40,286 nt of DNA, from positions 13,717 through 54,002 of the forward strand of contig JAHCML010000003.1 of assembly GCA_019192455.1 (NCBI GenBank), given 5' to 3'. The translations under genes and the position numbers were made by a program. The number at the start of each line of letters is the position of its first letter. Position 1 is the first letter of the stretch. Under the pieces are notes generated by a model. It saw nothing but the letters and a program-made list of their open reading frames with translations. It searched no databases and was not told the origin of the DNA. Of the stretch, positions 1 through 37,238 are shown one piece after another. This stretch comes from Alphaproteobacteria bacterium SS10 (GTDB lineage Bacteria > Pseudomonadota > Alphaproteobacteria > TMED2).

Positions 1-2640
1 GGTGATGTGGCCATTGCGACGGTTGGCATCACTGGTGATGGCTTTTCCCTCGCCCAATTGGAAGACATCGCAGAGGAGTTACGGCGAGAGCTGTACCTGC
101 TCGACGGCATCTCCAAGGTAACCCTGCATGGTGTTCAGGATGAGCGGATTTGGCTCGACCTCGACACCCGTCGCCTAGCGTCTGTCCGTGGTCAGATCGG
201 CCAGCTGCTTGAGGATTTGGCGGCGCAGAACGTCATCTTGCCAGCGGGTGAGATTGACGCCAATGGCACCCGTGTCGTGCTGGAAGCCAATGGTGATCTA
301 GATTCAGTCGAAGAGATCAGTGAGGTCCTGACCAAGGTTGATGGGTTGGACGGCTTCATTCGCCTGTCGGATCTGGTTGAGGTTCGCCGGGGCTATATCG
401 ACCCCAAGGATGATCCGGTTTTCATCAATGGCGAGCCCGCGGTGATCCTGGCCGCTGAGATGGCGGAGACCGCAGATATTCAGGTTTTGGGCCGGGCCTT
501 ACGGGTTGCACTCGATAACTTCGAACAGCGTCAGCCAATCGGGGTAGAGCTGCACATCTCAGCATTCCAAGAGACCAACGTGACGGCGGCGATTAACAGC
601 GCCCTGTCCAATGTGGGTCAGACCTTCATCGTTGTCTTCATTGTGATGCTGCTGTTCTTGGGCCTGCGCGCGGCCTTTGTGATCTCGTGTATCGTGCCGT
701 TCACCGTGATGTTTGCACTCAGCAATATGGGCATTGTCGGTGTTGATATTGAACAGGTCTCAATCGCCGCCGTGATTATCTCGCTCGGCCTGTTGGTCGA
801 TAATGGCCTGGTGGTCGTTGAGGATATTCAGGGCCGCATCAAAGACGGGGTCGACCCGGCTGAGGCCGCAAAGCAGGCGGGGTCGCAATACATGATCCCC
901 CTCGGCGTGGCGTCGATCACGACCATCTCTGCCTTCGTGCCGATGCTGATGATGACGGGTTCATCCGGTGAGTTTGCCTTCTCCCTCGGCGCGGTTGTGT
1001 CCTTGATGCTGTTAGGCTCATGGCTAACAGCCCTCTATGTCCTGCCTTTCTTGAGTGCCCGCCTGTTCAAGCAGCCGAAGCAGGAAGAGAAAGAGTCCGC
1101 CAACAAGCTTGCTTGGTATGGAAGCTTGACCCGCAAGCTGCTGCCTTACGGCATTCCGCTAACGGTGCTGGTCTATCTGCTGGTCGCTGGGGCTGTGACC
1201 CAGTTCTCAAACGTGAAGCCGGAGATGTTCCCGCTTAGCGATCGCGGTGACTTCATCATCTATATGGATATGCCTGAGGACACGGCGATCTCAGAGACCG
1301 AGCGCTATGCCCTCGAGGTTGAGGCTTGGCTGTCGGATAAGTCGGTCAACCCAGATGTGGTGAACACCGCCACCTATGTTGGTTATGGCGGCCCCCGTTT
1401 CTATCTGGCGCTAAGTCCTGCTGACGCTAACCCGTCGAGCGCGTTCTTCGCCGTCAATATGACTGATGTCGATGCGGTTCGGGAGATTGTGCCCCGGGTG
1501 CGCCGTGCCTTCATTGAACAGTTTCCAGCCGCCCGGTTCCGCATCACCCGTCTCTCAATGGGCGGTAGTGAGTCTGGCATTGTCGAGGTTCAAATCACCG
1601 GCCCTGATGCCGCTGTCCTGATGGATGCGGCCGATAAGGTTGAGCGCGCCTATGCCGGTGTTCCCGGTATCAGCCGGAACGAGATTGATTGGGGTAAGCG
1701 AGTTCTGAAAATCGTCCTCGACATCGCCCAGGATAAGGCCCGGGAATCTGGCATTACCTCAGAAGACCTATCGCAGGTGATGGAAGCCTACTTCTCAGGC
1801 TCCGCCTATTCAGTGTTCCGGGAGGCCGATCAACAGATCCCAATCGTTCTCCGCGCGGAAACCCGAGATCGGGATAGTATTGAGGACCTGGCCAATATGT
1901 CGGTCAATGTGGGCGATCGCCTTATCTCTGTCGATCAGGTCGCATCCTTCCAGCCGCGCTTGGAGTACTCGGAAATCCGGCGTGAGAACCAGGTCCGCCA
2001 AATCACCATCTATGGCAAGAGTGAGAACTTCTCTGCCCAGGGTCTGTTGGCTGAGATCCAGCCGGTTCTTGATGGTTTAGATTTGGGGCCTGAATACGCC
2101 ATCACCATCGGTGGTGAGCTTGAGGATAGCGGCGATACCTATGGTGAGATTGGCGGCAATCTGCCAATCGCGCTCGGCATTATGCTGGCCGCCTTGGTGT
2201 TTCAGTTCAACTCTATGCGCCGGACTTTGGCGACCTTCATGACCATCCCGGTGATCATGATCGGTGCCCCCTTCGCCCTGATCATCACGGGGCAGCCAAT
2301 GTCATTCTTTGCCGTGCTTGGTTTGATGTCCCTGATGGGGATCATCATCAACAACGCCATCGTCTTGATTAACCAGATAGATCTGGATGCTGAGACCATG
2401 TCGATTGAGGATGCCATTGTCAGTGCGGCCCAGAAACGGGCAACGCCGATCATGCTGACCTCACTGACCACGGTGTTTGGTCTGGTGCCGCTGGCCCTTG
2501 CCGGTGGCTCGTTGTTTGAGCCGATGGCGACGATCATGATTGGTGGTCTATTGGTGGCCTCGCCACTGACCCTGCTATTCGTGCCGAGCCTCTGCTACAC
2601 GCTGATGAAGCGGGAGCAGCGACGGGCTGCTGCGTCTTGA
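1..2640 (+). CDS. RND efflux transporter permease subunit (5' truncated)
   Basis: This is the C-terminal 879 or so residues of an inner-membrane RND pump of the HAE1/AcrB type, which uses the proton gradient to export compounds from periplasm or membrane. The reading frame is open to base 1, so the gene starts outside the window; the GTG at base 7 is not its real start. The sequence shows a periplasmic docking and porter region, then the first cluster of membrane helices with the proton-relay segment VDNGLVVVED. This is equivalent to the AcrB VDDAIVVVEN segment, with the second Asp replaced by Asn. A second periplasmic loop and a second helix cluster ending near the C-terminus follow. A membrane fusion partner would be expected upstream, out of view. 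The exported substrate cannot be deduced. Confidence 0.93.
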   Translation, partial: GDVAIATVGITGDGFSLAQLEDIAEELRRELYLLDGISKVTLHGVQDERIWLDLDTRRLASVRGQIGQLLEDLAAQNVILPAGEIDANGTRVVLEANGDLDSVEEISEVLTKVDGLDGFIRLSDLVEVRRGYIDPKDDPVFINGEPAVILAAEMAETADIQVLGRALRVALDNFEQRQPIGVELHISAFQETNVTAAINSALSNVGQTFIVVFIVMLLFLGLRAAFVISCIVPFTVMFALSNMGIVGVDIEQVSIAAVIISLGLLVDNGLVVVEDIQGRIKDGVDPAEAAKQAGSQYMIPLGVASITTISAFVPMLMMTGSSGEFAFSLGAVVSLMLLGSWLTALYVLPFLSARLFKQPKQEEKESANKLAWYGSLTRKLLPYGIPLTVLVYLLVAGAVTQFSNVKPEMFPLSDRGDFIIYMDMPEDTAISETERYALEVEAWLSDKSVNPDVVNTATYVGYGGPRFYLALSPADANPSSAFFAVNMTDVDAVREIVPRVRRAFIEQFPAARFRITRLSMGGSESGIVEVQITGPDAAVLMDAADKVERAYAGVPGISRNEIDWGKRVLKIVLDIAQDKARESGITSEDLSQVMEAYFSGSAYSVFREADQQIPIVLRAETRDRDSIEDLANMSVNVGDRLISVDQVASFQPRLEYSEIRRENQVRQITIYGKSENFSAQGLLAEIQPVLDGLDLGPEYAITIGGELEDSGDTYGEIGGNLPIALGIMLAALVFQFNSMRRTLATFMTIPVIMIGAPFALIITGQPMSFFAVLGLMSLMGIIINNAIVLINQIDLDAETMSIEDAIVSAAQKRATPIMLTSLTTVFGLVPLALAGGSLFEPMATIMIGGLLVASPLTLLFVPSLCYTLMKREQRRAAAS

Positions 2641-2847
2641 GGAGGGCCATTGGCGCCATTTTTTCGACGCCTGGGTCAAAATCACCTGTTGAGTATTTCG
2701 GCATGGGCGGCCATAGAAGGGGCAGCTAGCGTTTTTCTAATCGGACCACTGCCTTCCGTTCCTACGGCTACCAGTTGAACGATACAGACTGACTATGCCG
2801 GGCTGCCGCATCCCGTGGGCAGCAAAATTGAATAGGAGAACACGGAA

Positions 2848-3054
2848 ATGGCCACTGGCACCGTGAAATGGTTCAACAACACCAAAGGCTTCGGCTTTAT
2901 CGCCCCTGAAACTGGCGGCAAGGACGTTTTCGTCCACATCTCTGCCCTGGAGCGTGCGGGTCTTTCCACCCTCGAAGACAACCAGAAGGTTACCTTCGAT
3001 CTGGAGCCAGGCCGCGATGGCCGCGAAGCTGCAACCAACATTGCACTCGCTTAA
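2848..3054 (+). CDS. cspA: CspA-family cold-shock protein
   Basis: This 68-residue protein is a complete single cold-shock domain, a five-stranded OB fold that binds single-stranded RNA or DNA and acts as an RNA chaperone. It starts MATGTVKWFNNTKGFGFI, and both nucleic-acid-binding motifs are visible: KGFGFI (RNP1) and VFVHIS (RNP2). An AGGAGA ribosome binding site lies 8 bases before the ATG. The roughly 200 bases upstream carry no gene and would give room for a long 5' leader, as many cold-shock mRNAs have. A strong terminator follows the stop codon, so the gene is probably transcribed alone. The symbol marks the family only; alphaproteobacteria usually carry several paralogues. Confidence 0.95.
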   Translation: MATGTVKWFNNTKGFGFIAPETGGKDVFVHISALERAGLSTLEDNQKVTFDLEPGRDGREAATNIALA

Positions 3055-3068
3055 TCGATAAGAATTCT

Positions 3069-3103
3069 AAAAAGGGCGCCTTATGGCGCCCTTTTTGTTT
3101 TTT
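3069..3103 (+). terminator. Rho-independent terminator of cspA
   Basis: A perfect 10-base-pair stem (AAAGGGCGCC at 3071-3080 with GGCGCCCTTT at 3085-3094) encloses a TTAT loop and runs into a T-rich tail. It lies 16 bases after the cspA stop. It also ends just before the stop of the convergent SDR gene and may work for both strands. Confidence 0.9.
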
Positions 3104-3106
3104 GGC

Positions 3107-3928
3107 CTAGGCTTTGTCCGACCGGAATTCTGGCTTGATCTCTTTCATCGCAATGCGATCCAGCAGGCCAGGCGCCAATAGGCGCAACCAGCGACCCAGA
3201 TGGGTCTGCCGCGTCATGATGATGTCCCGCTTACGGGCATCCATGCCCTTCATAATCCGCGCGGCGCATTCTTCCACCGACATCGCTTTGTCTTCCCGCA
3301 CACCACTTTTGCCGAGTGGTTGGCCGCCAGCCGCATAGCCACGCTCTCGGATCGCGGTTGCCACCACGCCGGGATAGGCGATGGTGACGGTGATGCCCTG
3401 ATGGGCAACCTCACTGCGTAGGGATTCAAAGAACCCGCCCATGGCCCACTTGCTAGCGCAATAGGCGCTGCGTCCCGGCACCCCAACCAGCCCAGCGACG
3501 GAGGAGACGGCCACAATCTGGCCCTTGCTCTCAGTCAGGTGCGGCAGCGCATCCTTGGTCAGCCATACCGTCGACCAAAGGTTCAGGGTCATCAAATCCT
3601 GATACCAGGCAAGGTCATCATCGGTCAGATCAGCAAAATTCGCATGGGCCGACATGCCGGCATTCTGAACCAGCACATCCAACCGGCCATGGGCTTCAAT
3701 CGTGCCATTGATCAGTTGGCGGCAGGCCTCCCTGTCGGTGACATCGGTCGGGATGACGGTGGCGGCAGCCCCCACGGAACGCACGGCATCGGCAACGGCA
3801 TTCAGCTTGTCCGCATTGCGTGCGGCAAGGACCAGCGCGATGGCCGCGCCGTGCTTGGTCGCCAGCTGCCGCGCCAGCTCCGCCCCAATGCCGTCAGAGG
3901 CACCGGTGATGACAACCGTCATGGTCAT
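3107..3928 (-). CDS. Short-chain dehydrogenase/reductase (SDR) family oxidoreductase
   Basis: This 273-residue classical SDR is a cytoplasmic NAD(P)-dependent oxidoreductase with a Rossmann fold. The cofactor glycine motif TGASDGIG is at residues 8-15, NAG at about 89-91, the catalytic Ser at about 142-143 and YCASK (Tyr156, Lys160) at 156-160. An Arg after the second strand (AARN) favours NADP(H). A C-terminal extension of about 60 residues is basic and resembles SDRs of the DHRS7/YqjQ kind. Two in-frame ATGs lie 6 bases apart; the first is used here. The NTF2-like gene upstream ends 9 bases before it, so the two are probably one operon. The substrate is unknown. Confidence 0.9.
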   Translation of the reverse strand: MTMTVVITGASDGIGAELARQLATKHGAAIALVLAARNADKLNAVADAVRSVGAAATVIPTDVTDREACRQLINGTIEAHGRLDVLVQNAGMSAHANFADLTDDDLAWYQDLMTLNLWSTVWLTKDALPHLTESKGQIVAVSSVAGLVGVPGRSAYCASKWAMGGFFESLRSEVAHQGITVTIAYPGVVATAIRERGYAAGGQPLGKSGVREDKAMSVEECAARIMKGMDARKRDIIMTRQTHLGRWLRLLAPGLLDRIAMKEIKPEFRSDKA

Positions 3929-3937
3929 ACTGGTCCC

Positions 3938-4375
3938 TTACTCCTCCACCGGCGGTAGCCAGGTAAGGGAGGAATGGTGGAGGGAGATCAGCACCCGGCC
4001 ATCAAGCTTATGATAGGCGAAGGTATAGTCGGCCCGGGTCGCATTCCCGTCACCATCGACGAAGGTGTAGTGGCCCATATCCTTATAGCCGAGGCCGCCA
4101 GCCTTCAGGATTGGCCCAGCCGCACTTTGGAAGTCCACCCGCACCCAGCCCCGGTTCAGGAACCCATCATCATTGGGATAGCTGGGGTTGCCACCAACGA
4201 AGTAAGAGCGGGCGCCCGCCCGGTCTAGGCGGATCACATCAGCCAGGGTTGGCTTAAACAAAACCGGTTCATCCGGCGCGCCAAAATCATAGAGGTCGAG
4301 TAGTGCCTCAACATTCTGCTCGGTCACATGCTTCGACCAGGCACGCTGGGCGGCCACAACCTCAGCCTTCGTCAC
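3938..4375 (-). CDS. NTF2-like (CaMKII-AD/SnoaL-like) protein, candidate iota-class carbonic anhydrase
   Basis: This 145-residue single-domain protein has the layout of the COG4337 family, in which iota-class carbonic anhydrases were found. It has an N-terminal helix with W13 and LDLYDFG, then VLFKPTL (38-44), YFVGG (58-62), DDGF (69-72), MGHYTF (100-105), a Tyr/Phe-rich strand and the hallmark HHSS (133-136). In that family a Thr, a Tyr and the His-Ser pair line the active site; T104, Y117/Y121 and H133-S136 are the likely equivalents. Known members catalyse CO2 hydration, some without a metal. There is no signal peptide, so this one should be cytoplasmic, whereas many relatives are exported. 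The assignment rests on motif memory; a non-catalytic SnoaL-like protein is the alternative. It is co-directional with the SDR gene 9 bases downstream. Confidence 0.72.
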   Translation of the reverse strand: MTKAEVVAAQRAWSKHVTEQNVEALLDLYDFGAPDEPVLFKPTLADVIRLDRAGARSYFVGGNPSYPNDDGFLNRGWVRVDFQSAAGPILKAGGLGYKDMGHYTFVDGDGNATRADYTFAYHKLDGRVLISLHHSSLTWLPPVEE

Positions 4376-4452
4376 AGTTTCAAAATTACGCTTAGAAATA
4401 GCCCTGCCCTCGCATCACGGATCATTGTCTGGTGTGATTGCGAATAACCAAC

Positions 4453-4496
4453 AGTGCGGCTGGCTGCAACTCAATTGAACTGCAGCCAGCCGCGCT
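4453..4496 (-). terminator. Long perfect hairpin, probable terminator of the PepSY gene
   Basis: GCGGCTGGCTGCA (4456-4468) pairs perfectly with TGCAGCCAGCCGC (4481-4493), and the stem extends about three more pairs including a G-T wobble. The 12-base loop holds the palindrome TCAATTGA. It lies 30 bases beyond the PepSY stop on the minus strand. The following minus-strand tail (GTTGGTTATT) is only moderately T-rich, so termination is likely but not certain. Confidence 0.5.
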
Positions 4497-4525
4497 ACTT
4501 GAGGGGGTAAGTCTAACTAAAGGGA

Positions 4526-4885
4526 TTAGCCGTCAGTGTCTTCCTCACCCGGATCATCGGAGGGGTCGTCGTCGGTCCAGCTTGAGATGATGTCGCCGGT
4601 TTGTGGGTCGAGCATGAACTCAACCTCATCGCCCTGATCGGTAAGCACCTCAATCTCGATGAAGACCTTGCCATCCTCCCGCTCCAGCGCGATTTCTTCG
4701 ATTGTGCCTGGTTGCTGTTCCAAGGCGATGGCGATTGCCTGGTCAAAGGTTAGGGGGGAGGCAAGCGGCGGCTTTGGCTCTGAGTCAGCCAGGGCCTTGG
4801 CGCCAATAATGCCAAGTGGGATGGCAACGGCGATGGCGGTGGCCAGGATAGGGACCCATTGAATGCGGTTTGGTCGGTCACTCAT
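4526..4885 (-). CDS. PepSY-domain membrane-anchored protein
   Basis: This 119-residue protein has one N-terminal membrane segment (about residues 10-32) followed by a periplasmic PepSY domain (about 45-105) and a very acidic C-terminal tail (DDDPSDDPGEEDTDG). The ATG at 4885 is chosen because GAGGA lies 7 bases before it; an upstream in-frame ATG adds 17 unlikely residues. PepSY proteins occur next to PmrA/QseB/CarR-type two-component systems and are thought to modulate signalling or bind ligands or metal in the periplasm. Here the gene diverges from the response regulator, and the shared 198-base spacer carries two copies of the palindromic box. The acidic tail could bind cations, but that is inference. 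Confidence 0.85.
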   Translation of the reverse strand: MSDRPNRIQWVPILATAIAVAIPLGIIGAKALADSEPKPPLASPLTFDQAIAIALEQQPGTIEEIALEREDGKVFIEIEVLTDQGDEVEFMLDPQTGDIISSWTDDDPSDDPGEEDTDG

Positions 4886-4973
4886 TTGAGTTTCCTCAAT
4901 ATTACGGGACGGGCATGAACACTGCCCACCCAGCAATATGAGGCGACGGATATCGCGCTAGCCTGTCACCAAG

Positions 4974-4989
4974 TTTACAAATCTGACAG
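4974..4989. promoter_or_regulatory. Degenerate TTACA-N4-TGTAA box (site 1) in the PepSY/response-regulator spacer
   Basis: TTTACAAATCTGACAG has the intact left half TTACA and a weak right half (TGACA). It lies exactly 30 bases (about three helical turns) from site 2 start-to-start, 88 bases from the PepSY start codon. It could be a second half of a cooperative site serving the divergent PepSY promoter. Confidence 0.45.
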
Positions 4990-5003
4990 CTTCGCCGCCC
5001 TGG

Positions 5004-5019
5004 CTTACAAAACTGTAAG
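5004..5019. promoter_or_regulatory. Palindromic TTACA-N4-TGTAA box (site 2) upstream of the response regulator
   Basis: CTTACAAAACTGTAAG is a perfect inverted repeat (CTTACA / TGTAAG, 4-base spacer). It ends 64 bases before the response-regulator ATG. Near-identical boxes precede the two downstream transcription units at the same distance, which suggests binding by this response regulator and autoregulation. Confidence 0.65.
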
Positions 5020-5083
5020 GTGCAGAGCGGGCGCTTGTGATTTACCAAAGTCTCACGGGCGATGACGCGTAGAGATAGGCTTA

Positions 5084-5761
5084 ATGCGATTACTGGTTCT
5101 CGAAGATGATGACACCCTTGGTCCCTGGATCCAGAAGGGGTTGCGTGAGGCTGGGCATGTGGTCGACCTATTCGCCAATGGCAAGGATGCCCTGGTTGCC
5201 GCCATGGGCCAGAGCTACGACGTGCTGATCCTTGATCGCTTGGTGCCTGGGCTTGATGGCCTTTCGGTACTTCGTTCCCTCCGCCAGGCCAAGGTTACAG
5301 CGCCGGCGATTTTCCTCACCGCGTTGGGCGAGGTTGATGATCGGGTTGAGGGGCTTCGGGCCGGCGGGGATGATTATCTGGTTAAGCCCTTCGCCTTTAG
5401 TGAGTTGCTGGCCAGGATTGAGGTTTTAGCGCGGAGCCAGGGGGCGACGGAGCAGCAGAGTTCAGAACTCACCGCCGGTGACATCATTATCGATCTGCAT
5501 AAACGCAGCTGCACCAGGCAGGGCCAGCCAATCGATTTGAACCCAAAAGAGTTCCTGTTGCTCGAGGTTTTCATGCGGTCCAAAGGGCGGGTGCAGACCC
5601 GCACCATGCTGTTGGAACGGGTTTGGGATATGAATTTTGATCCCACGACCAGCGTTGTAGAAACCCATATCAGCCGCCTGCGCGGTAAGATCGAAAAGCC
5701 GTTCGGCGATACCCTCATTCGCACCATCCGTGGCACGGGCTATGTTTTTGAGCCGAGTTAA
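5084..5761 (+). CDS. OmpR/PhoB-family response regulator
   Basis: This 225-residue regulator has a receiver domain (1-115) and an OmpR-type winged-helix DNA-binding domain (about 128-223). The receiver carries the acidic pair D8-D9, phosphoacceptor D51 (LILDRLVPG), T79 and K101 (KPF), so it should be phosphorylatable. The winged helix shows NPKEFLLLEVF and SVVETHISRLRGKI. It resembles the PmrA/QseB/CarR group. It should be phosphorylated by the kinase encoded immediately downstream, whose frame overlaps its 3' end. The palindromic boxes in the upstream spacer and before the next two transcription units are its most likely binding sites. Confidence 0.95.
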   Translation: MRLLVLEDDDTLGPWIQKGLREAGHVVDLFANGKDALVAAMGQSYDVLILDRLVPGLDGLSVLRSLRQAKVTAPAIFLTALGEVDDRVEGLRAGGDDYLVKPFAFSELLARIEVLARSQGATEQQSSELTAGDIIIDLHKRSCTRQGQPIDLNPKEFLLLEVFMRSKGRVQTRTMLLERVWDMNFDPTTSVVETHISRLRGKIEKPFGDTLIRTIRGTGYVFEPS

Positions 5762-7028
5762 AGCCCTGTTGCGCCTGTCCGCCATGCGTCAAACCCTTTG
5801 GCTGTTGGGGCTGTTCTCCCTAATCACCTTGGTTGCCTGGGGCGGCACCTATTGGTTGGTGCAGCGGGAAATGACCCTCGCCGTCGACACCAGGCTGAAT
5901 GAGCGGATGGAAGCGGCCATCGCGGCCTTGGATGCAGGATCGGGATTGCCGCTGCCGGATACTGGTGAGACGGCGGCCATCGTTCGAACGGATCAGGAAG
6001 ATGGTTTCGAGACGGTGGATATGGCCCCGCCGGGTCCTGAGATGCGGTTCCTGTTACAGACCACTCAGCATGGGCGTATTAGGCTTGGCGAGAACACACA
6101 GCGTCAGGAGGAGCTTCGCGATATCCTGACCGCAGGCATGCAGGTCAGCCTGTTCGGTGCGTTGTTGTTAAGTGGCCTGGTTGGTGTCTGGCTCGCCAGG
6201 CGTGGGCAGGCGCGACTGAACACAATCAGTGCTGGCTTGGCCGAGGTGGCCCAGGGCCGACTGAACCAGCGGATTGTTCTGGATGGTCAGGATGATTTGA
6301 GCGAGTTGGCCGATCGCATCAATGACACGACGGCGCGCCTCGACGATGCCATGACCCAGATGCGGGTTCAGTCATCCAATATCGCCCATGATCTGCGTAC
6401 CCCGCTGGCCCGCCTTCGTGCGCAAATCGAAACCAGCCTCATCGCCGCGACAGAGAGGGGGCATGCCGTCGAACCGGCCGAGTTGGAAGCAGCGCTGGAG
6501 CAAATTGACCAGATCAGCGGCACTTTTGAGGCCTTGCTGCGCTTGGCCCGGATTGAGAGTGGCGCCGGCCGTGAAGCCTTTGCCCCGGTTGATCTTGGTG
6601 AGCTGGCCGATGACATCGCCCAGACCTTTGGTCCGGTGATTGAGGATACGGGCCACGCCCTGACGGTCGACCGGCATCAACCTGCCAGCGTAAATGGCGA
6701 CCGGGCCCTGTTGGTCCAGCTTCTCGCCAATCTGGTGCAGAATGCCCTCCGCCATGGTGCGGAGGGGCAGGCTATCGTGCTACAGGTTCAGGGCGCCATG
6801 TTGACCATCAGTGACCAGGGCGTTGGGATCCCCGCCGGGGAGCGGGAGAAGGTTCTGCAACCCCTCTATCAGGGGGAGGCATCGCGCCAGGGTGAGGGGG
6901 CCGGGCTGGGTCTGTCGCTAGTGCGTGCGATTGCCGAGCTTCACGACGCCGAACTCACGCTTAGTGATGGTCCCGGTGGGCGCGGCCTGACGGTTTCGGT
7001 TCGATTTAAGCCCCTTACAGAAATGTAA
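5742..7028 (+). CDS. Membrane sensor histidine kinase (HAMP, HisKA, HATPase)
   Basis: This kinase of about 428 residues has two membrane helices (about residues 17-40 and 134-153) flanking a periplasmic sensor of roughly 95 residues, then HAMP, HisKA with H216 in SNIAHDLRTPL, and an HATPase domain with NLVQNALRHG, DQGVGIP and GAGLGLSLV. The ATG at 5742 overlaps the response-regulator gene by 20 bases. A GTG at 5730 and an ATG at 5784 are alternatives and no start has a clear ribosome binding site, as expected for coupled translation. The short sensor loop and PepSY neighbour fit the PmrB/QseC/CarS group, which senses cations or envelope conditions. The stop codon lies inside palindromic site 3. 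Confidence 0.92.
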   Translation: MFLSRVKALLRLSAMRQTLWLLGLFSLITLVAWGGTYWLVQREMTLAVDTRLNERMEAAIAALDAGSGLPLPDTGETAAIVRTDQEDGFETVDMAPPGPEMRFLLQTTQHGRIRLGENTQRQEELRDILTAGMQVSLFGALLLSGLVGVWLARRGQARLNTISAGLAEVAQGRLNQRIVLDGQDDLSELADRINDTTARLDDAMTQMRVQSSNIAHDLRTPLARLRAQIETSLIAATERGHAVEPAELEAALEQIDQISGTFEALLRLARIESGAGREAFAPVDLGELADDIAQTFGPVIEDTGHALTVDRHQPASVNGDRALLVQLLANLVQNALRHGAEGQAIVLQVQGAMLTISDQGVGIPAGEREKVLQPLYQGEASRQGEGAGLGLSLVRAIAELHDAELTLSDGPGGRGLTVSVRFKPLTEM

Positions 7029-7029
7029 A
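7014..7029. promoter_or_regulatory. Palindromic TTACA-N4-TGTAA box (site 3) upstream of the HbpS-like gene
   Basis: CTTACAGAAATGTAAA overlaps the last codons and stop of the kinase gene and ends 69 bases before the HbpS-like start codon. Core halves TTACA and TGTAA are both intact. This implies a separate promoter for the HbpS-like gene controlled by the same regulator. Confidence 0.62.
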
Positions 7030-7098
7030 TCTGCGGTCAGGAAAGGCGTGGCCGGGCGCCCTATTTTCCAAGCTCTTAATCATTGAGAAGGAAAGATC

Positions 7099-29380: not shown

Positions 29381-29782
29381 ATGAGCAGCATGACCAGTAC
29401 CGTGGCCTTGGATGCCAACCTGATCCTGTTCAGTGATAAGCCGGTATTGATGCGGGCGATCCGTGACCATCTGCGCGAATGCAAGTTCACGAATGTAACC
29501 GTTATTACGGATCCTGAGCGTTTGATGACCGCCATGCGCAGTCAAGGCGCGGATCTACTGATCGCCGATATGGATGTTGAGCAGGACTGCTCCCTCAAAG
29601 TGATGAAGAAGATCCGTGAGGATGATCATCTGTTTCGGGTGCCGATCATCGCCCTTAGCGGTAATGCCTCCAAAGATACGGTGCTTAAGGCCGCGCGTGC
29701 TGGCGCCAATGACGTGGTGGTTAAGCCATTCCCGCTAAAGCAGCTTCATGATCGTGTGGTTGCTGCCCTAAGCCGCGACTGA
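29381..29782 (+). CDS. Stand-alone CheY-like receiver protein
   Basis: This 133-residue single-domain response regulator carries phosphoacceptor D63 (LLIADMD), S93 in place of the usual Thr (IALSGNAS) and K115 (VVVKPFPL). The usual acidic pair after the first strand is S18-D19 rather than DD or ED, so the Mg-binding site is weaker than usual, though D19 may suffice. No output domain is fused. It could act on a partner kinase or protein elsewhere. It is followed 12 bases later by the DUF429 gene, likely co-transcribed. An alternative ATG lies 9 bases downstream. Confidence 0.9.
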   Translation: MSSMTSTVALDANLILFSDKPVLMRAIRDHLRECKFTNVTVITDPERLMTAMRSQGADLLIADMDVEQDCSLKVMKKIREDDHLFRVPIIALSGNASKDTVLKAARAGANDVVVKPFPLKQLHDRVVAALSRD

Positions 29783-30784: not shown

Positions 30785-31864
30785 TTACTGTTGTGCGGTT
30801 TCTTCGCTTTCCGCATAGGCGCGGGGGCGGAACACCGTCTCGGCCAGGCGGCTGAATGGACGGCCCAGGGCTGTGGTCGTGATCTGCACCTTACTGAACA
30901 GTGGCAAATCACTCTCAGTGTGCATGAAGTCGATGCGCACCAGCTGGCGACGATCCGTTGGCTCGAAGGTCCGTTGGAATTCTTCACTCAGTTTGGAGGC
31001 GACTGGATAGATGTGCTTCACCCGGCCAGACATGCTCTCAACACCCGCTTGGATAACGACCTCTTGCTCAAGCTCTAGGTTATAGGCGGTGCCGGTAGGA
31101 ACCTGCGCCAATACAAAGGGCTTGTTGAAGTAGATCTCCATCAGGCTATCGCCGGGTTCAACGACGGCACCTTCAAGGATGTTCAGATTGGCAATCAGCC
31201 CCTCATGGGCGGCAAGGACATCACCGTTGTTGTAAGCGTCTTCCAGAAGGCTCAACGCCTCAGTCAGCTCATCCAGGCTGTGGCTCATCAACTCGATCGT
31301 GTTGTCGATGGTCTTGGCGTCAGCAATAACCTGCTGCGCGTCGCGCATGCTGGTGAACGCCTCATCAACCGCATTGGCCAGCCGGTCGGCACGAACCAGG
31401 CCACGCTCTTTCGCGTCGCGGGTGTTGCGCAGGCTCTCTTCCAAAATGCGGGAGCGTTCGAGTGCGGCGGTGCGGGTCGCGAGCAGCACCTCACGCCGGG
31501 AGACCATGGCGTTCAAATCGCGCTGCATGGTGAGCTGTTGGGAGCGGAGGTCGGCCAGACGCTCAAGCACGTCACGGCTGCGGATACGGGCCAGCAAATC
31601 GCCCTTCTGGACGACGGTGCCTTCCTCAACAAACAGCTCCATTACCGTGCCGCGATGCTCAGTCGCGACGGCGTAATTGTCCTGCATCACCTGACCATCG
31701 GCATCGAGGTATAGCAGGTGACCGAAGGCCAGGTCGGCGATGCCCAGGGCAACAATGCCCAGCAGCCCCAGATAAATCTGGCGGCCATAGCTCTTCTTAG
31801 GCTTACGCTTTTCGGTAACCAGTTGGTCGACGCGGGCCTTGGGTTTGATACGACGCATTACCAT
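30785..31864 (-). CDS. HlyD-family membrane fusion-like protein
   Basis: This 359-residue periplasmic adaptor-like protein has a basic cytoplasmic N-terminus, one membrane helix (about 29-51), a first lipoyl-like half (GTVMELFVEEGTVVQKGDLL, about 72-91), a long coiled coil (about 97-215), a second lipoyl half with AHEGLIANLNILEG and a C-terminal beta-barrel region. Such proteins bridge inner and outer membrane machinery, or act as the Alg44-like copolymerase of polysaccharide synthases. It overlaps the upstream glycosyltransferase gene by 7 bases, so the two are translationally coupled. No PilZ domain is seen, unlike Alg44. No ABC transporter or outer-membrane factor lies in the window. Confidence 0.88.
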   Translation of the reverse strand: MVMRRIKPKARVDQLVTEKRKPKKSYGRQIYLGLLGIVALGIADLAFGHLLYLDADGQVMQDNYAVATEHRGTVMELFVEEGTVVQKGDLLARIRSRDVLERLADLRSQQLTMQRDLNAMVSRREVLLATRTAALERSRILEESLRNTRDAKERGLVRADRLANAVDEAFTSMRDAQQVIADAKTIDNTIELMSHSLDELTEALSLLEDAYNNGDVLAAHEGLIANLNILEGAVVEPGDSLMEIYFNKPFVLAQVPTGTAYNLELEQEVVIQAGVESMSGRVKHIYPVASKLSEEFQRTFEPTDRRQLVRIDFMHTESDLPLFSKVQITTTALGRPFSRLAETVFRPRAYAESEETAQQ

Positions 31865-33135
31865 TGTTGGACGCTCCGGCGCACTTTCTCCGGATAGAAG
31901 CTGTCTTTGTAGCTGCTGCGGAACGCGAGTTCCGTGAAGCAGGCGGCAATCCGGATGAAACGTAGGAAGAAACTAACATAGACGCTGTAGCCCGGGATGT
32001 AGATCCAGAGCCGGTGCATACCGCGGCGCGGCGCCACCAAAGCGCAGGTGAAGAAGGTGAAAGCAGACATCGTGGTGTAAACGGCCCAAAGGAACAGGAC
32101 CAACGGCACCAAGAGATGCGGGAAGAAGATGACCACGTAAGGCAGGTACAGCAGCCAGCTGAACGGCAGCAACACATTGAAGAACAGCGCATTAACGCTG
32201 GCAAAGATATCGCGCCAGCGGAACTGCTTAGAGGTCGGGCTGAACACGCTGCGGAACTTGCGGAAGCGGTTGCGGATCAGGCTGCGATCCCAACGCATGC
32301 GCTGGCGGATAACGCCCAGGTCGCTATCTGGCACATTCGTTAGGCACCAAGCATCCTCAGCAAAGCCAACCTTCCAGCCGGCACGGCGCAGCTTGATGGT
32401 CAGGTTACTGTCATCGCCCGGGCCTACATCCCAGCCGCCGACACGCTCAACGGCTTCACGCCGGAACGCACCGAACGCGCCAGAGACGATCATCAGCCAA
32501 TCCATCTGATCGAGGAACTGACGACCCAGGCTGATATTGTCGAGATACTCAATCGCCTGGAACCGGGTGATCAAATTGTCGTCAACATTGCGCGCGGCAA
32601 TATTGCCGGACACGGCGCCAATTTCATCATCGGATAATAGGCGGGCGACGATGCGCTCAATCGCGTCATCATCAAAGCTGGTGTCGATATCGCAGGACAC
32701 CAACACATCATGCTTACAAAGACTGAAGCCCAGGTTGAGCGCCGCTGCCTTACCACCACGTAGATCGGTTGAGCGGTAGTCATCAATCAGACCCTGACGC
32801 TTTAGGCGGCGGGCGACTGAGCTCATATCATCGGTTGAGCCATCGTCGATTACGACGATCTGGATGTTTTCCTGGGTCTGGCGGCGCAGGGTGCGAACCG
32901 CTGCCGGCAGGCGGCTGCCCTCGTTATGGCCCACTAGCAGGACACTAACCGGTACCTCGCGGCGGCTTGGCGCCGGTGGACGCCGGACCAGGGCCCAGGT
33001 CAGGCCAACTGCCAGGGTTGAGAGGGTGAAGCGCGGCAAGTCAAAGAGGAACAGTGGCCAAAACAGGTAGAAGGCTGCCTGCCAGTCAAGCTGGCCAGCC
33101 AACAAGAACCCCTCTTTGAGCCAATCGGAAAACAT
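31858..33135 (-). CDS. Membrane glycosyltransferase family 2 (processive polysaccharide synthase-like)
   Basis: This 425-residue inner-membrane enzyme has the bacterial cellulose, alginate and hyaluronan synthase layout. It has N-terminal hydrophobic segments (about 20-50) and a cytoplasmic GT-A domain with VVIDDGS (D97-D98), DxD at D149-D151 and the acceptor-site GPGDD (D241-D242). QRMRW (278-282, the QxxRW motif of processive synthases) follows. Three or more membrane helices at about 312-400 should make the export channel. The sugar is unknown. The HlyD-like protein probably guides the chain through the periplasm, and the TackOD1/degenerate GGDEF protein encoded just upstream is a candidate regulator. 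Confidence 0.93.
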   Translation of the reverse strand: MFSDWLKEGFLLAGQLDWQAAFYLFWPLFLFDLPRFTLSTLAVGLTWALVRRPPAPSRREVPVSVLLVGHNEGSRLPAAVRTLRRQTQENIQIVVIDDGSTDDMSSVARRLKRQGLIDDYRSTDLRGGKAAALNLGFSLCKHDVLVSCDIDTSFDDDAIERIVARLLSDDEIGAVSGNIAARNVDDNLITRFQAIEYLDNISLGRQFLDQMDWLMIVSGAFGAFRREAVERVGGWDVGPGDDSNLTIKLRRAGWKVGFAEDAWCLTNVPDSDLGVIRQRMRWDRSLIRNRFRKFRSVFSPTSKQFRWRDIFASVNALFFNVLLPFSWLLYLPYVVIFFPHLLVPLVLFLWAVYTTMSAFTFFTCALVAPRRGMHRLWIYIPGYSVYVSFFLRFIRIAACFTELAFRSSYKDSFYPEKVRRSVQQW

Positions 33136-33158
33136 GACGCCGCCCTAACCCGTTACTT

Positions 33159-34601
33159 TCAAGCGGCTGCGCTTAGGTCGGACCAGTTGGCCTCAACCGT
33201 CACATCAGTCTCTTCACCACCAGACAGCATGGCAAAGCTTGGGTCGATGCCGAACAGGTCGTGCAGCGAGCTGGACAGCTTGTTCACCACAACCTGCACA
33301 TTCTCAGGTGGTGTGTCGGGCATCAGCACATAGATCTGCGGGCCACGCCAAGCGAGCAAGTCACTATCGCGTAGACGCTCTGCGGTCACCTCAGCGGCCT
33401 GCTTATACAGGGCGTTGATTGAGGCCATGCCTAGGCGCTCAATCTGTTTGCTGCTGGCTTGCAGCGTCACGCGCAATACTACATGCGGGCGATTGCTGCG
33501 GCGGGTGCGGCGACCCTCAATGATGACCAGGCGATCAAACTCTTCGACCGAAATGATCCGCGCGGGCTCACCGATCTGACCCAGCAGGCCAGGTAGGGCA
33601 CCCGATAGAACAGCCTGACGGCCATCGGCGGTTAGGTCGTAATGGTAGATATCGCGGGTCGCGGCATCCTTGCCGGCGGTGTGCTCACCGCAATCCATGC
33701 AGGTGAAGCCAACTTCCACATCACCGGATTGGTGGCCGCAATCATTACAATGGGTCACGTCACCTGAGATGTCGTAGTCGACACCGTAATGGCGCAGGCG
33801 CTCATTACATTTTGGGCAGACAAGCCGCTCACCCTGCACAAACTGGCTGCGTAGGCCCTGGTGGCCACAGCTGTAGTGGTGGATCAGAGGCAGTGATTGA
33901 ATGTTGCTGGAGTGGCAGCTCTCGCATTCTTCCTGCGCGATGAGGCGGGCAGAATCGCAATGGCTGCACTCATGCACGCGCTGGAAGAAGCTGCGTTGAA
34001 GCAGGCCATCATTCGCCAGGTTCTCAAGTCGTTCGTTAGAGAATGGGATGCCGGTCAGGGTTGGGTAGGCAGTCACACCAGGCTTGTGGGGGGCCCATTG
34101 TGCGGTGATCTGTTGCTGGCGTGAGTAAGCCATGGCGAGAACCAGGAACTCTTCGCGTTGCTCGCTTGGGATCTCAGGGATGTCATCCAACAGGTTGCGA
34201 GCGTCTTCGATTTCACTCAGGGCTTCACGCAGGGTTTCTTCCGTAATCCGGCGGATGCGGGCATCGGCGCGTGGGAGATTGCCGATGGCATCGATTACGG
34301 GAAGCAGGCTGCGCTGGTTCGCCCAAAGGCCACGGAACATGCGTGATGGGTTGGCACCCGGCATGGCCAGCAAGGCATCGGTGTTCTTGCTCAACCGGCG
34401 CTCATAGGTAATGCCAGAAACGGGTGGGAGGTTTTCAACATCGCCGCCGACGACACAGAGATGCCAGCTGGTCCGTGGTGCACGAACTGGCCGTGTTGGC
34501 TGGTTTGATCCCCGGGTATTCTGTTCAGCAACGGGCTTGCGGCCGCCGATAGTCACAGCGCCGGATTGGCCGTTCTGTTTTCCTTTACTAAATCCCCACA
34601 T
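33159..34601 (-). CDS. TackOD1 zinc-ribbon protein with degenerate GGDEF domain
   Basis: This 480-residue soluble protein has an N-terminal region of about 200 residues with no clear family. A Cys-rich TackOD1-like domain (about 205-330) follows, carrying five CxxC pairs (C212/215, C226/229, C262/265, C285/288, C301/304) plus C245 and the landmarks HHYSCGHQG, LVCPKC and GVDYD. Residues 350-460 look like a degenerate GGDEF domain: ERLRDSDLLAWRGPQIYVLM aligns with the active-site strand but has GPQIY where GGDEF should be, so it should not make c-di-GMP. TackOD1 is an output domain found with receivers and in diguanylate-cyclase-like proteins. AAGGGAG precedes the ATG. It leads the glycosyltransferase operon, separated by 23 bases. 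Confidence 0.8.
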   Translation of the reverse strand: MWGFSKGKQNGQSGAVTIGGRKPVAEQNTRGSNQPTRPVRAPRTSWHLCVVGGDVENLPPVSGITYERRLSKNTDALLAMPGANPSRMFRGLWANQRSLLPVIDAIGNLPRADARIRRITEETLREALSEIEDARNLLDDIPEIPSEQREEFLVLAMAYSRQQQITAQWAPHKPGVTAYPTLTGIPFSNERLENLANDGLLQRSFFQRVHECSHCDSARLIAQEECESCHSSNIQSLPLIHHYSCGHQGLRSQFVQGERLVCPKCNERLRHYGVDYDISGDVTHCNDCGHQSGDVEVGFTCMDCGEHTAGKDAATRDIYHYDLTADGRQAVLSGALPGLLGQIGEPARIISVEEFDRLVIIEGRRTRRSNRPHVVLRVTLQASSKQIERLGMASINALYKQAAEVTAERLRDSDLLAWRGPQIYVLMPDTPPENVQVVVNKLSSSLHDLFGIDPSFAMLSGGEETDVTVEANWSDLSAAA

Positions 34602-34711
34602 GGTCGCACTCCCTTACGTGACCCATTCTCACCTGTTTTTGAGGCGGTTTTTGCCGCCTCAGAGCCCCCGGATTTGATCAACAAGCCTGATCAATAGGAG
34701 GGTGTCATATT

Positions 34712-34740
34712 TTGAAAATGTTTAAAATTTAAGCTTTATT
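34712..34740 (+). promoter_or_regulatory. Promoter-like TTGAAA-N17-TTTATT
   Basis: TTGAAA (34712-34717) and TTTATT (34735-34740) are separated by 17 bases inside an AT-rich block that stands out against the GC-rich surroundings. It would fire toward the RTX gene and give a leader of about 420 bases, or a short RNA ending at the 34869-34889 hairpin. The match to a sigma-70 promoter is moderate. Confidence 0.3.
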
Positions 34741-34868
34741 TTTTGTATTACACACACTATCCAATGGCGGCCGACCGGTTGATCCGGGGGCGTAACCCTA
34801 ATTCGTTGATTTAAAACACTTTGTAGTGGTGTGGTTCAACTCGCCTAAGCGGGTAATCCACTTTCACG

Positions 34869-34889
34869 ACTGTGTATGACACAGTTTTT
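34869..34889 (+). terminator. Small hairpin with T-run (possible terminator or attenuator)
   Basis: ACTGTGT (34869-34875) and ACACAGT (34879-34885) form a perfect 7-base-pair stem with a 3-base loop, followed by four more T residues. It could end a short upstream transcript or be an operator palindrome. Confidence 0.35.
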
Positions 34890-35168
34890 ACGCGTGCTTT
34901 GCGAAAGTGCCGAACTCACAAGACATGGCCTTTCTGCATAGCTGGAATAAGCAAGTTTCGGACCAGTTTGGCGTCGGTGCTTTCGTTAACCGAGATTAAG
35001 CCCCGTACACAGATTAGCCGTGCTGCTTTTTAGATATCGTTAACGCGAGTTTGGTTTCGTTGAGAACTGAAGCGTTGGGGTAGCGTCGCGGTGACTGGCC
35101 ATAACGGCCAACCGGTTGGGTGAAACTCAGCCGCGTAGATAGAACGCTTATTTGCAGGATGAAAAACC

Positions 35169-37238
35169 ATGACTGGCCAAATCAAAATCGGCACATCCGG
35201 AAATGACACCTTCTCCACCGGTGGTGGTGACGACCTTCTTAAAGGTATGGCTGGTGATGACTCCCTGCGCGCTGGCTATGGCCAGGACACGCTGAACGGC
35301 GGTGACGGTAATGATTACGCCCATGGCCATAAGGGTGATGACAGCATCCTCGGCGGTCGCGGCGACGACACCCTGGTCGGTGGTCAGCAAGACGACACCA
35401 TGCGCGGCGGCGATGGCAACGACACCCTTTATGGTGACGGCCACAATGACAGCCTGACCGGCGGTAACGGCAACGACTTCATCACTGGCGATAATGAGCG
35501 CGGTACCCAGAGCCCAGGTTACGACACCGGCTCTGACACCATCCGTGGCGGCAATGGCGACGATACCCTCGACGGTGGCGCTGAGGCCGACACCGTTCAC
35601 GGTGGCAATGGCGCCGACTCAATCGATGGTGGCACCGGCGATGATCGCCTGACCGGCGGTAATGACCGCGACACCATCTTCGGTGGCGCTGGGGCTGACA
35701 CGATCCATGCTGGCAACGACGAAGATTATGTTGAGGGCGGCGACAATGCTGACCGCATCGGCGGCGGCGAAGGCGCCGACACCCTCTATGGCCAAGACGG
35801 TGACGACACCGTCCATGGCGGCAATGATGATGACCTCATCTATGGCGGTGAAGGCAATGACAGCCTGACCGGCGGCAATGGCGATGACACCATCATCACC
35901 GGCAATGGCGATGATACTGCCCGCGGTGGCAATGGCGATGACTTCATTGAGGGTGCCGATGGCAACTACCTGCTCTCTGGTGGTGAAGGTCGTGACACCC
36001 TATTTGGTCAGGCTGGCGATGACACCATCCACGGTGGCCGCGACGCTGACACGATTGAAGGTCGCGATGGCAATGACAGCCTGACCGGTCACACCGGCGA
36101 CGACACCATCAAGGCTGGCGAGGGTGCCGACACCCTGCGCGGCGGCGAGGGCAATGATTTCCTCGATGGCGGCAACGGTGCTGACTCTATAGCTGGTGGC
36201 GGCGGTGATGACACCGTCTTTGCTGATGATGGCGATGACCGCGTCCATGGCGGCTCCGGTAATGACAGCCTGCGTGGCTTCCACGGTGATGACACGATCC
36301 ATGGCGGCAATGGCGATGACCGTGTGTTCGGTGGCGTCGATCCAAACGCCGATGCGTTCGATCCAACCGAGAGCGATAATGACAGCCTGACCGGCGGTAA
36401 TGGCGATGACCATCTGTTCGGTTACAACGGCGCTGACACTATCCGTGGCGGCAATGATGATGACACGCTTGAAGGCGGCAACGGTGCTGACAGCCTGGCT
36501 GGCGGTAGCGGTAATGACGAGATCTTCGGCGGTACCGGCGGCGACCGTGCCCATGGTGGCAATGGCGACGACATGATCCGCAGCTTCACCGGCGATGACA
36601 CCGTGTTCGGTGGCAATGGTGATGATGTCATCATCTCCGGCGTTGGCACCGATGATTTGGCTGAAATCTCACCGGATGAGACCGATAACGATCTGGTTCG
36701 TGCCGGCAATGGTGACGACACCGTTGAGGGCCAAACCGGTAACGACACCCTGTTCGGTGGCAACGGTAATGACCGCCTGGACGGCAATGATGGCGATGAC
36801 ATCGTTCGCGGTCAGAACGACAATGACAGTCTGAACGGCAATGGCGGTGATGACACCGTCTATGGCGACCGCGGCAACGACACCGTTCGCGGTGGTACCG
36901 GTAATGATGACCTCTACGGTGGTGATGATGCCGACACCCTTCAGGGCAGCAGCGGCGAAGACTATCTCGATGGTCAGCGCGGTGATGATGTTCTGGAAGG
37001 CGGTAACGCGGCAGACATCTTCGTTCTGACCCGTGTTGGCGGCCACGACTTCGTGCTCGACTTCGGCAACGGTAACGACCGCATCGACGTTTCAGCCTTC
37101 AATGTGAATGGTGGTGTCGACAGCCTGAACATCTCCCAAAACGGTGATGGCGACGCGGTTATCGATTTCGGTAGCGCCTCTCTGACCCTTGATGATGTCG
37201 ATGGTGAAACCCTCACCGATAGCGACTTCATCTTCTAA
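35169..37238 (+). CDS. RTX (hemolysin-type calcium-binding repeat) protein, repeat-only
   Basis: This 689-residue protein consists almost entirely of glycine- and aspartate-rich nonapeptide repeats of the GGxGxDxUx type, each turn binding calcium in a parallel beta-roll. There is no enzymatic domain or signal peptide. Longer insertions break the repeats at intervals (around NERGTQSPGYDTGSD, VDPNADAFDPTESDN and VGTDDLAEISPDETDN). The C-terminal 70 residues change to a serralysin-like end (DIFVLTRVGGHDFVLDF) and finish in DFIF, an acidic-hydrophobic type I secretion signal. It is probably exported by a type I system not in this window and folds outside on calcium. A role as adhesin, surface layer or polysaccharide-associated protein is inference from its neighbour. 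Confidence 0.9.
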   Translation: MTGQIKIGTSGNDTFSTGGGDDLLKGMAGDDSLRAGYGQDTLNGGDGNDYAHGHKGDDSILGGRGDDTLVGGQQDDTMRGGDGNDTLYGDGHNDSLTGGNGNDFITGDNERGTQSPGYDTGSDTIRGGNGDDTLDGGAEADTVHGGNGADSIDGGTGDDRLTGGNDRDTIFGGAGADTIHAGNDEDYVEGGDNADRIGGGEGADTLYGQDGDDTVHGGNDDDLIYGGEGNDSLTGGNGDDTIITGNGDDTARGGNGDDFIEGADGNYLLSGGEGRDTLFGQAGDDTIHGGRDADTIEGRDGNDSLTGHTGDDTIKAGEGADTLRGGEGNDFLDGGNGADSIAGGGGDDTVFADDGDDRVHGGSGNDSLRGFHGDDTIHGGNGDDRVFGGVDPNADAFDPTESDNDSLTGGNGDDHLFGYNGADTIRGGNDDDTLEGGNGADSLAGGSGNDEIFGGTGGDRAHGGNGDDMIRSFTGDDTVFGGNGDDVIISGVGTDDLAEISPDETDNDLVRAGNGDDTVEGQTGNDTLFGGNGNDRLDGNDGDDIVRGQNDNDSLNGNGGDDTVYGDRGNDTVRGGTGNDDLYGGDDADTLQGSSGEDYLDGQRGDDVLEGGNAADIFVLTRVGGHDFVLDFGNGNDRIDVSAFNVNGGVDSLNISQNGDGDAVIDFGSASLTLDDVDGETLTDSDFIF

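Follow-up and report, generated by a model that had tools for sequence, protein, structure and literature searches.

The three open reading frames (ORFs) that fill positions 30785-34601 of the window analysed here, a 40,286-nucleotide stretch of contig JAHCML010000003.1 (GCA_019192455.1, positions 13,717 to 54,002) from Alphaproteobacteria bacterium SS10, run on the minus strand (34601→30785) and form one compact operon, as a first-pass annotation of this DNA had proposed. Judged by sequence homology, the operon is of the mxdABC type, an alphaproteobacterial homologue of mxdABC from Shewanella oneidensis. We consider it likely that its first protein is a receptor for cyclic di-GMP (c-di-GMP), binding the nucleotide through an I-site and thereby controlling a family 2 glycosyltransferase (GT2) synthase. 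Operons of the Mxd type are already known, from a single genus, and the annotation had missed this identity. What the analysis adds is the link between the Pfam domain TackOD1 and MxdA, the near-universal presence of an I-site although the active site is dead, evidence that such operons are widely distributed, and a branch of the family that lacks the I-site.

In S. oneidensis, mxdABCD (SO4180 etc.) is needed for three-dimensional biofilm (PMC3691769, PMC7666153). We located the mxd locus of strain MR-1 with an mxd-promoter primer from PMC3691769, which has one exact match in 129 Shewanella genomes, with a second primer matching nearby. The gene downstream of the primer site encodes MxdA (462 aa), a protein that matches TackOD1 with E 4.7e-71 and carries a degenerate GGDEF domain with an RxxD motif (RVTD). 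By BLASTP, the first window protein (ORF1) is 27% identical to MxdA over 285 aa (E 1e-25), and the second (ORF2) is 29% identical to MxdB over 380 aa (E 2e-50). A hidden Markov model seeded with the HlyD proteins of the window family finds MxdC at 164 bits, and Pfam HlyD domains occur both in MxdC and in the third window protein (ORF3). The order A-B-C on a single strand with tight spacing is that of an Mxd-type operon, and most relatives have this order too. The two systems share gene order, a TackOD1 protein with a degenerate GGDEF domain and RxxD, homologous GT2 enzymes and an HlyD protein, whereas the window operon differs in its 27-29% identity, its lack of mxdD and a strongly diverged membrane-fusion protein. 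Searches with phmmer found no MxdD homologue in the fetched loci beyond MR-1, other Shewanella included; because mxdD is confined to MR-1 among these loci, we treat it as accessory rather than defining.

ORF1 (33159-34601) matches TackOD1 (PF18551) over residues 147-323 with E 1.4e-45, scoring 155.6 bits where the Pfam cutoff is 32. The five CxxC pairs that had been read from the sequence are all present (212/215, 226/229, 262/265, 285/288 and 301/304), together with H241 and C245, and 11 cysteines and one histidine are almost invariant over 112 sequences. Paired CxxC knuckles of this sort are usual in structural zinc sites, and the Cys/His set fits such a role. The family profile search returned no solved relative of TackOD1 alone, a search in which the domain was not folded and compared by itself. 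We found no paper naming TackOD1 beyond PMC5847659, in which its function is called obscure. Three TackOD1 genes are split over two frames, in Shewanella indica (L070 5905-7341), Alisedimentitalea (L025 4692-6001) and one Vibrio hepatarius strain (L046 5950-7360), which we ascribe to frameshift or sequencing error.

The C-terminal domain of ORF1 is a true GGDEF homologue. The match of the single sequence to GGDEF_2 is weak and under cutoff (E 0.0055). A family profile matches solved GGDEF structures with E 4e-12, and the C-terminal model superposes on GGDEF chains with VIA Z 13-14.5 and a root-mean-square deviation (rmsd) of about 3 over 125-138 residues. This fold has no catalytic signature, in agreement with the earlier description of a pseudo-cyclase. 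Where that description placed GPQIY at the active site, the loss of the signature stands but the register was one residue off: alignment to relatives puts RGPQI (419-423) at the GGDEF position. Across 112 homologues, GG(D/E)EF is present in none of the 95 scorable sequences and is absent wherever the site aligned, so an active diguanylate cyclase was ruled out for the window protein and its family. MxdA is said once to have been described with an "NVDEF" motif, and we found no paper joining that term to MxdA. In the S. oneidensis protein (L116 6879-8267), the string NVDEF occupies the DxDxFK position (QMLNVDEFLRAEG), whereas TRDGL stands at the GGDEF position.

The RxxD I-site is kept in 86 of the same 95 sequences and is intact in the window protein (R411-D412-S413-D414, RDSD). 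Of the 120 columns scored in the GGDEF-like domain, D414 is the best conserved (94%), followed by R411 (92%), with which R368 is tied. At position 441, equivalent by spacing to R390 of PleD, 99 of 112 sequences have Lys or Arg, and the window protein has Lys. The host encodes four GGDEF proteins, and because intact GGEEF and GGDEF motifs are present in two of them, it probably makes c-di-GMP.

Relatives of the TackOD1 protein are encoded at 509 loci in genome contigs. In all of the best 80 of these, a GT2 gene lies directly downstream on the same strand, followed by an HlyD gene, sometimes one gene later. Since the 80 loci were chosen by similarity, we added an even phylum sample, in which TackOD1 exceeded the cutoff in 15 of 398 genomes, host included; in the other genomes, GT2 adjoins TackOD1 at 15 of 15 loci and HlyD is present at 14, the remaining locus being cut by a contig end. 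A class sample gave the full triad at three of seven loci other than the window's own. The linkage of TackOD1 to GT2 is not by chance, and the annotation was right in expecting a polysaccharide operon with a conserved TackOD1-GT2-HlyD arrangement. A single-sequence genome scan found no close relatives of the window protein, and 58 same-class relatives yielded one sub-threshold match besides the host. The triad also occurs on annotated plasmids of Phyllobacterium, Aminobacter, Methylocystis, Roseibium, Palleronia, two Rhodobacterales and Plesiomonas. Mxd-type operons extend beyond Shewanella and span Alpha-, Beta- and Gammaproteobacteria; a review of c-di-GMP-regulated exopolysaccharides does not mention Mxd (PMC8461298).

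Variant arrangements were also seen. The order is HlyD-TackOD1-GT2 rather than TackOD1-GT2-HlyD at L145, L150 and L151, from two families of the phylum sample. Pseudomonas-type loci, L108 (8431-10491) among them, encode between GT2 and HlyD a 686-aa protein that is probably the export channel; it combines an outer-membrane efflux (OEP) domain with an additional C-terminal stretch that matches nothing in Pfam and looks, by eye, like a barrel-type hydrolase. In one Aliivibrio fischeri strain, two distinct Mxd-type operons lie on the same contig, separated by about 14 kb (L048 and L054). A haloarchaeal plasmid encodes a TackOD1 protein (L026 4842-5843) with no GT2 or HlyD nearby.

ORF2 is a GT2 in which the processive-synthase motifs noted earlier (D98, D149xD151, D242 and Q278RxRW282) are present and invariant among relatives, and in a GT2 tree it falls in the alphaproteobacterial group. 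The best named family is PgaC/IcaA, at 137 bits against an equivalog cutoff of 422; because this score is so far under the cutoff, the product of the enzyme cannot be named. HlyD domains were confirmed in ORF3, and the reported lack of PilZ holds, a Pfam search finding none in any of the three operon proteins. The adjacent GT2 and HlyD genes had suggested a resemblance to Alg8/Alg44 and, with PilZ absent, could be read as a degenerate alginate-type operon that lost its PilZ domain. Like the window operon, Alg8/Alg44 comprises a GT2 and an HlyD-like protein, and it is under c-di-GMP control; unlike the window operon, it has as receptor a PilZ domain that is fused to its HlyD protein. The resemblance did not survive comparison of the synthases: against S. 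oneidensis MxdB the window GT2 reaches 164 bits, but against the Alg8-like synthase encoded in the host genome only about 19. That synthase belongs to a separate cluster (L122; G000:C4:178000-197000; ORFs 2206-3618, 3816-5489 and 5411-7057) encoding an Alg44-type PilZ-HlyD protein, which is the one PilZ match of the host genome, a GT2, and a UDP-glucose/GDP-mannose dehydrogenase. On the GT2 scores and the separate cluster we ruled out an Alg8/Alg44 origin, which we regard as hardly credible. Next to the L122 cluster, one gene resembles mannose-1-phosphate guanylyltransferase and another encodes an RTX-repeat protein.

S. oneidensis MxdA is reported to bind c-di-GMP, to make contact with the cyclase PdgA and with the chemotaxis regulator CheY3 in its phosphorylated form, and to serve the Mxd machinery as its effector (PMC7666153, PMC11395469). 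By analogy, the window operon would direct a secreted biofilm polysaccharide, with the MxdB-like GT2 polymerising and probably extruding the glycan and the MxdC-like HlyD protein linking the synthase to the periplasm. The MxdA-like protein, a predicted catalytically dead diguanylate cyclase, would be the receptor through which the synthase responds to c-di-GMP. The nucleotide would bind the retained I-site (R411xxD414 and K441), and the resulting change would be relayed, probably through the zinc-stabilised TackOD1 domain, to the GT2, which would then switch on. Nucleotide binding by the window protein and its direct contact with the GT2 are inferred, and the choice of TackOD1 as transmitting module is a guess. 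The I-site offers a specific candidate for the site of the reported c-di-GMP binding by MxdA, and TackOD1, a Pfam domain of obscure function, is tied to a testable role in the control of a biofilm polysaccharide synthase.

Degenerate GGDEF domains serve as receptors in other polysaccharide systems. PelD uses an I-site to bind c-di-GMP and drive exopolysaccharide synthesis (PMC8461298). Its degenerate GGDEF domain resembles that of the window protein, and its I-site activates a polysaccharide synthase, but PelD has transmembrane helices and a GAF domain, serves the GT4 enzyme PelF, and is associated with neither TackOD1 nor a GT2-HlyD pair. PssE of Listeria monocytogenes is an RxxD I-site receptor encoded in an exopolysaccharide operon and essential for synthesis (PMC4125290); like the window protein it has RxxD ahead of a dead GGDEF motif, by five residues in PssE, whereas no TackOD1 is described for it, its operon differs and its host is Gram-positive. 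Archaeal TackOD1 proteins (PF18551; PMC5847659) share the zinc-ribbon-like domain and sometimes a receiver domain (REC) with the window family and, unlike the window operon, are reported near type IV pilus genes.

Several observations weigh against an I-site receptor in an mxdABC-type operon. ORF1 is merely 27% identical to MxdA, and ORF3 gave no BLASTP match to MxdC. The third I-site residue is Lys, not Arg, and the spacing from RxxD to the GGDEF position is 4 residues rather than 5, one residue being missing. At four class-sample loci, TackOD1 is not directly followed by a GT2: two have their nearest GT2 on the opposite strand, 1.5 kb off, one lies near a contig end, and one has no GT2. Finally, the operon is kept in relatives without the I-site (Phyllobacterium, Aminobacter, Roseibium, Palleronia and Rhodobacteraceae), so c-di-GMP is not the sole workable input.

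The retention of both TackOD1 and the operon in these relatives bears on a different explanation, close to that put forward in the annotation, in which TackOD1 senses redox or zinc and so switches the GT2, with the GGDEF-like domain as a mere scaffold. The near-invariant cysteines and histidine and the obscure function of the domain (PMC5847659) agree with such a sensor. The paired CxxC knuckles of TackOD1, however, are of a kind usual for structural zinc, and one relative (L029) lacks two of the CxxC pairs yet has TackOD1, GT2, HlyD and I-site. Conservation in the GGDEF-like domain is highest at the I-site, and MxdA is reported to bind c-di-GMP; with RxxD intact and nothing here pointing to redox, sensing of redox or zinc in place of c-di-GMP is unsupported and is not needed as an explanation. 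We rate a TackOD1 sensor of this kind as quite improbable.

RxxD is lost in a rhizobial/rhodobacterial branch comprising Phyllobacterium, Aminobacter, Roseibium and Palleronia, and a second loss is found in Rhodobacteraceae M382 and Tropicimonas. In Roseibium (L017 4035-5945) and Palleronia (L018 4461-6158), a true REC is fused N-terminally to TackOD1, and Hpt genes lie beside the operon in both. Because the operon persists without the I-site, the input seems, from these sequences, to have changed in this branch, which offers a natural experiment on input change in such a synthase. More tentatively, TackOD1 could be a module dedicated to coupling in GT2 synthases under c-di-GMP control that form a widespread but unrecognised class (REC-like region, TackOD1 and dead GGDEF with I-site). 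One alphaproteobacterial branch of this class would have been rewired from c-di-GMP gating to two-component gating, through decay of the I-site and, in some members, fusion to a true phospho-receiver; we hold this whole scenario to be a serious possibility, somewhat short of probable.

Phospho-relay output might instead drive the GT2, through the protein's own pseudo-receiver or a partner CheY, with c-di-GMP playing no part. The fusions and nearby Hpt proteins of Roseibium and Palleronia agree with this, and in these REC-TackOD1 relatives phospho-relay drive without c-di-GMP seems likely. The family model L077 aligns end to end (14-462) with the REC-GGDEF proteins PleD, DgcR and WspR at Z 14-15, in a flexible fit only, with rmsd 12-22. 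Profile comparison (hhalign) of the N-terminal part with receivers gave a weak match (p 0.006, probability 2.7%), and the N terminus of the window protein itself was modelled poorly, with confidence too low for a structure search; in the family model, this part has the look of a receiver that has decayed. A stand-alone CheY-like receiver is encoded at 29381-29782 on the plus strand, about 1 kb beyond the operon end, and is a candidate partner of the MxdA-like protein because S. oneidensis MxdA binds CheY3 (PMC7666153). Against a phospho-relay in the window operon, ORF1 has no true receiver domain, no phospho-acceptor Asp could be placed, and the I-site is kept, unlike in the REC-fused relatives. 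We therefore think phospho-relay control to the exclusion of c-di-GMP unlikely; the two inputs may act together.

Table 1. Features of the mxdABC-type operon and its upstream region (window coordinates, or residues of the encoded protein).
Feature	Position	Strand	Basis or details
mxdA-like gene, 480 aa	33159..34601	-	Pfam TackOD1 match, model, alignment; BLASTP to S. oneidensis MxdA
mxdA-like protein, pseudo-receiver-like N-terminal region	about residues 45-140		weakly supported
mxdA-like protein, TackOD1 zinc module	residues 147-323		Pfam match
mxdA-like protein, degenerate GGDEF domain	about residues 345-465		I-site R411xxD414 + K441; RGPQI at 419-423
mxdB-like gene, 425 aa, membrane GT2 synthase	31858..33135	-	D98, DxD 149-151, D242, QRMRW 278-282
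mxdC-like gene, 359 aa, HlyD-type membrane-fusion protein	30785..31864	-	one hydrophobic segment, 30-48
divergent intergenic region, 567 bp	34602..35168	.	sequence read directly

The mxdA-like and mxdB-like genes are separated by 23 bp, and the start codon of the mxdC-like gene overlaps the mxdB-like stop. A ribosome-binding-like AAGGGAG lies immediately 5′ of the mxdA-like ATG, and the divergent intergenic region presumably holds the putative operon promoter. Divergent from the mxdA-like gene, positions 35169-37238 on the plus strand encode a 689-aa protein made up almost entirely of RTX calcium-binding repeats. An RTX protein flanks the alginate-like cluster too, and such proteins are perhaps matrix partners of each polysaccharide.

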